Below, piece by piece: positions 1,932 to 6,176 of a DNA stretch of 6,176 nucleotides. Position 1 is the first letter of the stretch. Each line of letters begins with the position of its first letter. Below the pieces are notes generated by a model. It did no database searches, was not told the DNA's origin, and was given only the letters and a program-made list of their open reading frames with translations. The position numbers and the translations under genes are program-made. The DNA comes from Caldilineaceae bacterium (GTDB taxonomy: Bacteria > Chloroflexota > Anaerolineae > Caldilineales > Caldilineaceae): NCBI GenBank assembly GCA_012032975.1, contig JAAUPU010000200.1, forward strand, positions 1-6,176, written 5' to 3'.

Positions 1932-3105
1932 CTACACCATACGCATCGCCCCCTCCATCCGCCCTAACGCCTCCTCCAGCGTTGCACGCGGGCAGCCGAA
2001 GTTGAGCCGGACGAAGCCCTGTCCGACGTGGCCGAAGTTCGAGCCGCAGTTGAAGGCCACGCGTGCCTTCTCCAGGAAGAACTGCTGTGGGTTCCCCTCG
2101 ATGCCGCTCTCCCGACAGTCCAGCCAAAGCAGATAGGTCGCCTCTGGCACAGTCGTCTTGAGTGACGGCATGTGCTGGGCGATGTACTCAACGGCGAAAT
2201 CCCGGTTGTCGGTCAGGTAGTCGCGCAGCTGGGCCAGCCACTCGCCGCCCTCGCTGTACGCAGCCTCCGCGGCCACATAGCCCAGGATGCTGGGATGGGG
2301 AACGATGCCAGCCGAGGCGCGATTTCATTGCGCGCAATCGGCGTTGGGAATGATGGCCATGCTGCAGCCAAGCCCCGGCACGTTGAAGCTCTTGCTGGGC
2401 GCCATCAGCGTGATCGTCCTGTCGGCGACCTGGGGGTCGAGGCTCGCTATGGGAGTGTGTTGGGTGTCGCCCAGCAACAGATCGCAGTGGATCTCGTCCG
2501 AGCAGATGACAAGAGCATGGCGCTCACAAATCTCGGCCATGCGCGTCAGTTCGGCCGGCGAGTAGGCGCGGCCGGTTGGGTTGTGGGGGTTGCAGAGCAG
2601 AAAGAGGGCTGTGGCAGGTGTAATGGCCGCCTCGAACGCATCCCAGTCGATCTCATAATAGAGGTGCTGTCGATCTTGAATCCGTCGCTCACTTTCCCGA
2701 AGGGCAGCCACGTGAGCTTCCCGATTCTGGTTGGTCGGCGCGGTCAGAAAGGGCGGATAGACGGGCGTGTTGACGAGTACACCATCGCCATCCGCACCGA
2801 TCGCGCGGCTGACTGCGTTAAGCCCGCAGACGAGGCCAGGCAAGAATGGCAATCATATCGGCCTCGATCTGCCAGCCATAGAGATCGTCGAGCCGTTGGC
2901 AGATCAGTTCGCGCAGGCGCACGGGATCGCGACCATAGCCAAAGACACCCTCTGCCGCGCGCGCCTGCAACGCCGCTGCGATCGCCGGCGGAGAACGGAA
3001 ATCCATGTCCGCCACCCACAGCGGCAGCACGTCGCTCTCATAGTGCGACCATTTGCCGCAGTCCGTTCCAAGTCGAGGCACGATCTCGTCGAAGTCGTAT
3101 TTCAT
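1932..3105 (-). CDS. patB: MalY/PatB-type PLP-dependent aminotransferase-fold C-S lyase (cystathionine beta-lyase), interrupted
   Basis: This fold-type I PLP enzyme family cleaves cystathionine or cysteine-like substrates to a thiol, pyruvate and ammonia in the cytoplasm. The start ATG at 3105 has AAGGA five bases upstream (3115-3111). Family signatures in order: LPLWVADMDFRSP near residue 28, FGYG, FLPGLVCGLNAV, CNPHNPTGRAY, CSDEIHCDLLLG (the Asp contacts the PLP ring nitrogen in this fold), APSKSFNVPGLGCS with the Schiff-base lysine near residue 238, IVPHPSILGY, and VRLNFGCPR near the C-terminus with the carboxylate-binding Arg. Total span is about 391 codons, the usual family length, ending in TAG at 1934-1932. 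Two breaks exist: a frameshift near 2845-2852, between YGWQIEADMIA and FLPGLV, and an in-frame TGA at 2327-2325 with the same frame continuing on both sides. It follows mrpG by 10 nt, so is probably in the same operon. Exact substrate is not determined. Confidence 0.87.
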
Positions 3106-3115
3106 GAGTTTCCTT

Positions 3116-3520
3116 TCAATTCGCATTGGCAAGCGACTCCGGTTTCGGCCCTGGTTTCGGTCCCGGTTCCAGATCCTCGACCGCCTCTTCCAACTCATCG
3201 CAATGCAACAAAACGGAGCGTCGCGTTTCGTCGGTGCTATGGGCGGCACGCGCCATGGTCGTGGTGGCAATGGGCGCAGTCACAAAAAAGAGCACGATCA
3301 GCACCAGCATACGCAAGAGGCTGCTCTCGCCAAAGTGGAGTCCCGCACTCAGCAGAATGCAGCTCACCCCCAGCGTGGCTGCCTTGCCCGCCGCGTGCAT
3401 GCGCGCATAGACATCTGGCAAGCGCAGAATTCCGACAGCACTCACAAACATGAAGAACGTACCGATCACGGCCAATACCAGCGAAAAACCGTCCAAAATG
3501 CTGACACCCAGAATGCTCAT
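3116..3520 (-). CDS. mrpG: Na+/H+ antiporter subunit G (MrpG/MnhG/PhaG family)
   Basis: MrpG is a small membrane subunit of the Mrp multisubunit cation/proton antiporter. The 134-aa product has three hydrophobic segments (about residues 9-31, 44-62 and 66-86). The family signature is between the first two: GILRLPDVYARMHAAGKAAT, the LR-x-PDVY-x-R-x-HAA-x-KA motif typical of MrpG. The tail after residue 90 is hydrophilic, first acidic (CDELEEAVEDLE) and then a short proline-rich repeat (PGPKPGPKPE). This tail is somewhat longer than in many homologues. Its ATG overlaps the mrpF stop in an ATGA, implying translational coupling, and its TGA stop is 10 nt before patB. The frame is intact. Confidence 0.93.
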   Translation of the reverse strand: MSILGVSILDGFSLVLAVIGTFFMFVSAVGILRLPDVYARMHAAGKAATLGVSCILLSAGLHFGESSLLRMLVLIVLFFVTAPIATTTMARAAHSTDETRRSVLLHCDELEEAVEDLEPGPKPGPKPESLANAN

Positions 3521-3861
3521 AGCCCACCATTCCCACCCGCGCCGGAGTCGGTCGGACTAGAATCTGGGGATTCGCTGGCGGATACCTGTTCGACCACGTC
3601 AGCGCTCTCCAAATAGCGCGCCAGCATCACCGTCCCCAAAAAACCCAGCACAGCTGTGACGATTGCCACATCCAGCAAGAACGGCGAATCGATGCGCACC
3701 GAGAAGAGCACAACCAGGCAGACCGCGTGGATCGCAATCACATCGAACGCAACCGTCCGATTTGGCACATTTGGCCCCAGCAAGAGGCGAATCGCGCAGA
3801 GCACCAACCCCACGCTGACGACGGCAATCAATATATCCAGTAACAGGGTGTATGAACCCAT
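3517..3861 (-). CDS. mrpF: Na+/H+ antiporter subunit F (MrpF/MnhF/PhaF family)
   Basis: MrpF is a small membrane subunit of the Mrp antiporter. The 114-aa protein has three hydrophobic segments (about residues 5-27, 37-55 and 61-82). The conserved family core is visible: RLLLGPNVPNRTVAFDVIAI after the first helix, then FLLDVAIVTAVLGFLGTV in the third helix followed by ARYLE. Residues after about 85 form a hydrophilic Ser/Pro/Gly-rich tail that I see as a lineage-specific extension. The ATG at 3861 has GAGGGG eight bases upstream, inside the end of mrpE. It starts three bases past the mrpE stop and overlaps mrpG by four bases. The frame is intact. Confidence 0.93.
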   Translation of the reverse strand: MGSYTLLLDILIAVVSVGLVLCAIRLLLGPNVPNRTVAFDVIAIHAVCLVVLFSVRIDSPFLLDVAIVTAVLGFLGTVMLARYLESADVVEQVSASESPDSSPTDSGAGGNGGL

Positions 3862-3864
3862 CGA

Positions 3865-4401
3865 CTATTCCCCTCGCGAGATCTGCAGAATCATACGCTC
3901 GAAGCCATTCTGAATCTCAGTCCGAAAGTGCTCTTCGTCGCCCAAACGCAGGCTGTGTACGTAGAGTACCTGGCGTCCATTGGCATCGGGGACGAGGTCC
4001 ACGCTGAGTGTACCGGGGGTCAACGTGATGACCGACGCGAGCACCGTGATCTCGATGTCACTGGTAACGGTGAGTGGAATACCCACGATGCCAGGGTCAA
4101 GATCAAGCCGGGGACGCAGAACCACGATGGCTAGGCTCACATTGCTGACAAGGATTTCCCACAACACATAAAACAGGAAAATCGTGGTGCGATAACAGCG
4201 TCGTCCATAGGCGCGGTCGAAGAGTGTGATGGCAACAAAGCCAATCAAGAAACCACTAAGATAGTCCCACGGCTCGCCCCAGATGGGAGCGAACAACGGC
4301 ACGAGAAGCGCAATGAGCGCGTTGAACGACAGGAGCATCAACATCCGAAATAGGCTGTGGTCGGCCTGGGATGGAGACGGGTCTGGCTGGCTGGGCGTCA
4401 T
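3865..4401 (-). CDS. mrpE: Na+/H+ antiporter subunit E (MrpE/MnhE/PhaE family)
   Basis: MrpE is a membrane subunit of the Mrp antiporter needed for assembly and full activity. The 178-aa protein has an N-terminal polar stretch of about 18 residues (MTPSQPDPSPSQADHSLF), longer than the usual start. Hydrophobic helices follow to about residue 60. Then come FLFYVLWEILVSNVSLAIVV, matching the WEL-x-x-SN-x-x-V motif of the family, and the soluble C-terminal part with GIVGIPLTVTSDIEITVLAS and LTPGTLSVD, the most conserved MrpE signature. The C-terminus FRTEIQNGFERMI is also typical. An in-frame TAA lies just upstream of the ATG, so translation cannot start further out; the Met residues near position 20 are alternative starts. 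The ribosome binding site is weak (AGAAGA). It follows mrpD by 94 nt with no gene in between. Confidence 0.92.
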   Translation of the reverse strand: MTPSQPDPSPSQADHSLFRMLMLLSFNALIALLVPLFAPIWGEPWDYLSGFLIGFVAITLFDRAYGRRCYRTTIFLFYVLWEILVSNVSLAIVVLRPRLDLDPGIVGIPLTVTSDIEITVLASVITLTPGTLSVDLVPDANGRQVLYVHSLRLGDEEHFRTEIQNGFERMILQISRGE

Positions 4402-4495: not shown

Positions 4496-5978
4496 CTATC
4501 TATGCTCACCGTCGCCATTGCTCTTATCAGCAATCACAGGAATCTCATCGGTTGGCGCCACCTGCTGAATATACCCTTCGCGGTCAAGCACCTGGTGCGC
4601 GGCGATCTCGGACCAGTGAAAGACCGTACCGCCAAAGATGCCGATAGCCAAACTGAGCGCGACCAGCAGGGAGATCGGTGCAAGAGTCAACCAGCGACGG
4701 AAGGGTCGCGTCATCGGCGCGAAAGGAGAGAGCGGTTCGGTTGCTTGACCCCAGAATGCCTTCTGCCACAATCGGACCATACTGAGCAACGTAAAGAAGC
4801 TCACGATCAGGCTGACCGCGGCGATCAGCCAGTTTTCACCGGCCAACGCACCTTCGAGCAGGCTCAATTTGCTGACAAAGCCACTCATCGGGGGAATGCC
4901 CGCCAGCGCCATGGCAGCGAGGAAGAAGACCACGGCCAACCCAGTGCGTCTGCCTATCAATCCGGCCAACTGGTTGTGCAGCAGGCTGCCGCTCCCAACT
5001 TCCATTTCTGCGGCGCCGCCAGCCATCAACAGAGCCGTCTTCACAATCATGTGATGGACCAGGTACAAAATACCGGCCGCCATGCCAAAGGTGGCCGCGC
5101 TGCGGTCGCTGCTTGCGGCCAACCCCAACCCCAAGACCATATAGCCAACCTGCGAGATGATATGAAAACTGAGCACCCGGCGCATGGTGTTGACCGCCAT
5201 CGCGCCAAAGACGCCGACGAGCATGGTCAGGCCCGCGATGGCCAAGATCAGCGGCTGCCAGGCGATCAGAATGGCCGGAAAGATCAGCGGAAAACACGGA
5301 ACAAGGTGTAGATGCCCACCTTGGTCAACAACCCGCCAAACAACGCGGTCACCGATGGATGGGTGGTATGATAGCTGCTGGGTAACCAGAAAAACAACGG
5401 AAAGAGACCCGCCTTGCTGCCAAACGCAACCAACAACAGCCCAGCCAGAATCAGTTGCACCGTCTCGGGCGCATGACCCATGCGCTGGGCCAACTGTGCC
5501 ATGTTGAGCGTGCCCAAAGCGTGCCATACATGACCCCGACGGCGACGAGGAGCAAGGTCGAAGCAAGCAGGTTGAGCAACACATAGCGAATGCCGCCGTT
5601 GATCTGCGCAGGTTGACCGCCCAGGGTCAACAGCACAAAGCTGGCCATCAGCAACACTTCGAAGAAGACATAGAGGTTGAAGAGATCGCCAGCCAGAAAT
5701 GCGCCGTTGACGCCCATCAACAGAAAAAGGATCAGCGGGAAAAAGTTCATCCGATCTCGCTGATCGAGCGTGCCCACGGCATAGCTGACGGTTGCGACCG
5801 CCAAGATCGCGCTGAGTGTCAGCATGATCCCACTCAGACCATCCAGCACAAACGAGATGCCGAAGGGCGCGGGCCACAGCCCCATTTGCAGCACCAGTCG
5901 CCCCTCGGTCAGCGCGTAATAGAGGAGCAGACAGGAGATGAGCAGATTGACGACGACGGCCACAGCGGCGACGAGCAT
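4496..5978 (-). CDS. mrpD: Na+/H+ antiporter subunit D (MrpD/MnhD), two frameshifts and a lost N-terminus
   Basis: MrpD is one of the two large proton-pathway subunits of the Mrp antiporter and is related to complex I subunit NuoN/NuoM. Three pieces in different frames together cover nearly the whole protein. Piece 1 (to about 5520) has GLWPAPFGISFVLDGLSG, GVNGAFLAGDLFNLYVFFEV with the conserved membrane Glu (codon 5660-5658), and GVMYGTL. Piece 2 (about 5515-5290) has GTLNMAQLAQ, GSKAGLFPLFFWLPSSY with the conserved Lys, and LLTKVGIYTLFRVF. Piece 3 (about 5290-4496) has ILYLVHHMIVKTALLMAGG and LAGIPPMSGFVSKLSLLEGA, and ends in TAG. The breaks lie near 5508-5527 and 5286-5297 (CCGC next to TTTT); each is repaired by one added base. 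The minus frame stays open to an ATG at 6050, but codons beyond about 5978 are antisense to an ABC-2 permease and do not resemble the MrpD N-terminus, so the true start is missing. Confidence 0.9.
5947..5978. other. Inverted junction between mrpD and an ABC-2 permease
   Basis: To the left, the minus strand reads as MrpD; to the right, the plus strand reads as an ABC-2 permease. In these 32 bases both strands still give sensible readings (minus LVAAVAVVVNLL of the first MrpD helix, plus TTTATAATSM of the permease), so the breakpoint cannot be placed more exactly. The permease reading continues to the right without a start codon, and the MrpD reading ends without its normal first residues or the mrpC gene. 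Two gene fragments meeting head to head like this indicates a rearrangement or a chimeric sequence, not a normal gene boundary. Confidence 0.6.
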
Positions 5979-6176
5979 GACGCGCGAAAAGGAATCGAAC
6001 ACGCTGGAATTGGTGCTCGCCACGCCGTTGACCAGCCGCCACATCATCATGGGAAAGATCCTGGGCCTCGTTTATGCCACCGGACCGATGCTGCTCGTCC
6101 CGTTTCTCACCGTCGCATTCTTTTATCTTGCGGGGTTGCTGCCCAAGACCGAGGCGGTCGTTTTCTGGGAGACGCT
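5947..6176 (+). CDS. ABC-2 type transporter permease, internal fragment (cut at the junction and by the window end)
   Basis: ABC-2 type permeases are the membrane subunits of ABC exporters. A plus-strand frame, open from 5923 to the window end, reads TAATSMTREKESNTLELVLA from about 5962 and then TPLTSRHIIMGKILG. The (T/S)REKE...TLELxLATPLT...I-x-x-GK-x-LG pattern is the cytoplasmic coupling-helix signature of ABC-2 permeases. It is followed by a strongly hydrophobic helix (PMLLVPFLTVAFFYLAGLLP) as expected in the family. There is no start and no N-terminal domain: plus-strand codons upstream of about 5947 are antisense to mrpD, and a TAG sits at 5920-5922. An ATG at 6049 is only an internal Met. 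I see an internal part of roughly 76 residues; the remainder would lie past the right edge. Confidence 0.72.
   Translation, partial: MTTTATAATSMTREKESNTLELVLATPLTSRHIIMGKILGLVYATGPMLLVPFLTVAFFYLAGLLPKTEAVVFWET

Follow-up and report, generated by a model that had tools for sequence, protein, structure and literature searches.

In the collection described in PMC1855051, over 85% of the chimeras formed by MDA are inverted and intramolecular events are favoured, and complementary sequences of 2–21 bases are present at over 70% of the junctions. For metagenome assembly, the account in PMC7881036 describes a tendency of low- to intermediate-coverage species to enter chimeric contigs. The window, by which we mean the whole stretch of 6,176 nucleotides that was analysed, is very probably one whole 6176-base contig, and about 200 bases before its end two cut-off genes meet head-on. 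In all likelihood this junction is an assembly or library artefact, a chimeric join between two phyla, as judged from the nearest relatives of its two sides.

Organisation of the contig

Read from the junction, the minus strand carries mrpD (in pieces), mrpE, mrpF, mrpG, a PatB-like aminotransferase and a Band_7 protein, and the plus strand carries a fragment of an ABC-2 permease on the other side. The features are as follows.

1935..3099, minus strand: PatB-like aminotransferase/C-S lyase, interrupted near 2844 by a frame change and near 2325 by an in-frame stop
3116..3520, minus strand: mrpG (PF03334)
3517..3861, minus strand: mrpF (PF04066)
3865..4401, minus strand: mrpE (PF01899)
4496..5972, minus strand: mrpD, Na+/H+ antiporter subunit D of Caldilineaceae type, with about 40 N-terminal codons missing at the junction and frame changes near 5518 and 5294
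5956..5972, no strand: junction, about 17 bases that fit mrpD on the minus strand as well as the ABC-2 permease on the plus strand; each edge may be off by several bases
5956..6176, plus strand: ABC-2 family permease, internal fragment of Phycisphaerae (Planctomycetota) type, cut off by the contig end

The genes mrpE, mrpF and mrpG are intact, in contrast to the broken mrpD and PatB-like gene. The stretch 1935–4401, in which mrpG is followed by the PatB-like gene, has the same arrangement in several Chloroflexota relatives and is a conserved neighbourhood; among the 80 mrpD loci that were fetched, single loci with DNA similarity to both mrpD and the patB-like part include L001, L004, L007, L019, L038 and L043. 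At 497–1787 on the minus strand two overlapping frames encode a Band_7 (SPFH) product (497–1336) and a product with membrane regions (1227–1787), the latter with a weak match to TgpA_N below the cut-off (E 0.0019); a further frame change may have divided a single gene into these two frames.

The frame changes in mrpD were placed alike by all four relatives tried (that near 5518 to within 3 bases), and those in the PatB-like gene, the frame change near 2844 and the stop near 2325, by both of the two relatives tried. The third codon position showed the most change in 24 of 24 comparisons of eight gene pieces, and since change is concentrated there these genes were under selection until recently. 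The simplest reading is that the frame changes and the stop are errors in a low-coverage consensus; possibly they reflect a recent decay of the region.

The edges of the two genes

The minus strand at 5451–6050 matches MrpD models, the best being NF009306 (E 1.6e-49, model residues 26–178), and a Proton_antipo_M domain is found together with the MrpD-type models, in pieces owing to the frame changes. On the opposite strand positions 5938–6174 match PF12679 with E 3.3e-8 over profile positions 84–142 of 283, that is, as an internal piece that is open at the contig end, and the 33.6 bits of this match, for a fragment only, exceed the curated cut-off of 27.2. The tail is also matched by a profile of 16 permeases from the Chloroflexota class. 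The first-pass annotation had described mrpD running head-on into an internal ABC-2 permease fragment, and with clear matches on both strands the junction, as well as the ABC-2 identity of the tail, holds.

The mrpD match ends near 5972 and lacks some 40 residues at the N-terminus; the relatives, whose copies of the gene are intact, have about 40 residues ahead of the point where the window starts fitting. In an alignment with 120 MrpD proteins, the matches listed for the joined mrpD query, a consistent fit is seen from residue 27–28 of the 6050 frame (about 5972–5967) leftwards; residues 21–26 score negative, and the W-Q-R stretch of the family is missing there. Two isolated earlier columns, at residues 9 and 19, agree with the alignment, and this is taken as chance. 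The apparent start of mrpD at 6050 (MMMWRLVN...) lies within the antisense of the permease, and the intact MrpD of relatives has a different N-terminus, so that the gene is truncated, as first proposed. Against a clean mrpD edge, local alignments with two of four relatives, L001 (in two analyses) and L005, extend to 6065, and those with L004 and L002 end at 5972 and 5984, respectively; the 120-protein alignment does not support the stretch reaching 6065.

The permease match begins at 5951–5956 and continues off the contig end. When the window from 5700 to 6176 was compared by blastn with 20 permease loci of the closest genomes, 19 matched, with starts at 5951–5986 and none to the left of 5951. 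Base by base, in the ten loci that could be anchored (the other ten of the 20 lacked the anchor motif and were dropped), identity per five bases rises from 8–52% left of 5955 to 58–96% right of it. The same comparison on the MrpD side with 30 loci gave 19–51% throughout, owing to indels ahead of the anchor; the 120-protein alignment was used in its place. Eight relatives of the tail in a collection of 5.8 billion proteins are 54–75% identical to it, and the only one of these eight matches named by organism is from a Phycisphaerae bacterium. The sequence ATAATSMTREKE is common, exactly or nearly, to the window and the eight permease relatives, and P0128 starts inside ATAATSMTREKE.

Since the permease edge, from the DNA matches and the base-by-base identity, overlaps the mrpD edge, about 17 bases at 5956–5972 fit both genes. 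The claim that both genes are cut at one place in opposite orientations was therefore borne out, and the interval, originally put at some 30 bases, is narrowed to 15–22.

Which lineage each side belongs to

With the joined 493-residue mrpD query the best matches were 74–75% identical, Litorilinea aerophila among them, and further named matches in the list are Caldilineaceae and Anaerolineales. When the first mrpD piece was used to fetch 80 loci, the best were titled Caldilineaceae, Anaerolineales or Chloroflexi, with 60–73% identity in the best segment. The permease was searched in two classes, each assigned to a lineage by the title of the locus used to enter it: L044, a Phycisphaerales bacterium (Planctomycetota), and L001 (genome G001), a Caldilineaceae bacterium. 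In the L044 class (298 genomes), 213 genomes have a match at E <= 1e-3 and 20 have one at E <= 5.8e-17; L113 gives the best match, with 79% over 73 of 73 residues and E 5.3e-33. In the G001 class (396 genomes), 212 match, at best with E 7.8e-8 and 44% identity, and in the family of G001 six of 46 genomes do so (best E 5.3e-6, 38%).

The mrpD piece behaves in the opposite way. In one search of 14 genomes it matched G001, G002, G003, G004, G007 and G013 at 62–72%, and the eight genomes with the best permeases at no more than 52%. Two of these eight, G466 (52%) and G544 (51%), encode their own MrpD, and Mrp is for this reason not foreign to the permease-bearing class; the other six reached only 30–36%, among them G538, the genome with the closest permease, at 33%. 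The two sides are thus almost certainly a Chloroflexota antiporter operon and, at its end, some 200 bases of a planctomycete transporter gene, as far as relatedness of sequence can assign them.

At the left end of the contig the Band_7 product (497–1336) has relatives at E <= 5.2e-35 in three of the 46 family genomes, or in 37 of them when mostly weak matches at E <= 1e-3 are counted, and none in six permease genomes, a distribution that weakly fits Chloroflexota. GC content does not separate the two sides, being 0.58 in the tail and 0.58 in the rest, and a distant DNA search in plasmids gave short MrpD-like matches only.

A tblastn search of the tail against the 80 mrpD loci, taken with as much as 10 kb of flanking DNA, found no permease of this kind (E <= 1e-2). 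Many of these loci lie on short contigs or are truncated by a contig end, and not all have the full 10 kb flanks. Likewise, the 16-permease profile gave only two matches, with E 0.48 and 0.56, in the 9993 frames of 60 amino acids or more in these loci. The predicted 67-residue product of the tail's gene (P0001) is known from a single contig, of 6176 bases, which is the window's own.

Origin of the junction

An mrp operon of Chloroflexota type and a permease of planctomycete type, cut at a short shared stretch in opposite orientation close to a contig end, indicate a false join in a mixed sample. Reads or molecules of a Caldilineaceae-like Chloroflexota and of a Phycisphaerae-like planctomycete would have been present in the same sample and been fused at their ends, oppositely oriented, at about 17 bases shared by chance, which are mrpD in antisense and permease in sense. 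The assembler might have made the join through an overlap or a shared k-mer where coverage was low, or a chimeric molecule might have formed in the library; the contig then ended about 200 bases past the join, which presumably no cell carried. The junction is almost certainly such an artefact, going by the comparisons above.

Counting against an artefact, 212 of the 396 genomes of the Chloroflexota class do carry weakly similar permeases. Transport genes move between phyla, and for both reasons a planctomycete-like permease would be possible in a Caldilineaceae organism. A real rearrangement, in which a planctomycete-type permease was gained by transfer and mrpD was truncated by an inversion or insertion breakpoint inside both genes, would agree with the long open frames of both fragments up to the junction, and with the frame changes and stop in mrpD and the PatB-like gene as expected in a decaying region. 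It would, however, require a transfer, a breakpoint in two genes and a contig end 200 bases away, and no close permease is present in the 46 family or 396 class genomes; the dominance of third codon positions in every comparison moreover argues that mrpD and patB have not been decaying for long, and neither the list of open reading frames nor the family searches, which were not designed for this purpose, gave any hint of a transposon or integrase. We regard it as very unlikely, and slightly less credence still is given to its stronger form, a real and recent transfer in which the insertion, or an inversion, at the shared 17 bases disabled the Mrp antiporter.

An inverted MDA chimera within one genome, formed when the strand switches to complementary sequence close by on the same molecule, is the most improbable of these alternatives. 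The inverted orientation and the short shared sequence are its usual signs as given in PMC1855051, but the preference for intramolecular events stated there would lead one to expect the permease near mrp, where none of the 80 loci, searched with as much as 10 kb of flank, has it, and the relatives of the tail belong to another phylum. An inversion or the usual MDA chimera is disfavoured because either joins parts of one genome, and the relatives of the two sides are from different phyla. The first-pass annotation had left the choice between an inversion that cut an antiporter operon and an inverted chimera or misassembly; the artefact is upheld, with the sides now placed in different phyla, and the inversion is not supported, given that the 80 mrpD loci lack a permease of this kind and that the relatives of the tail are planctomycete, no close copy of the joined gene being found elsewhere in the related genomes searched (80 mrpD loci, 46 family and 396 class genomes). 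A fold-back of the contig was rejected, as a comparison of the tail with the rest of the window gave no second copy, inverted or direct, better than chance (best E 0.16).

If the contig were annotated unchanged, it would give the impression of a disrupted antiporter operon, of genes paired head-on and of an inter-phylum transfer. Such joins can be detected without raw reads by comparing the nearest relatives on either side of a junction.

Comparison with known systems

The window resembles the inter-species chimeric metagenome contigs of PMC7881036 in that different genomes would share one contig, here with halves whose homologues are in different phyla; unlike the chimeras described there it is a single contig, known by its sequence. 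With the MDA chimeras characterized in PMC1855051 it has the inverted join and the short shared sequence in common, but those were mostly formed within one molecule and the two sides here look like two organisms.

As in the Mrp antiporter operon of Caldilineaceae, the subunit order is D-E-F-G with a PatB-like gene downstream, as in several relatives, but mrpD of the window is truncated and frame-broken. Unlike a full Phycisphaerae ABC-2 permease (PF12679) the window holds an internal 73-residue piece only, and over these 73 residues it shows 79% to L113, with ATAATSMTREKESNTLELVLATPLTSRHII in common.
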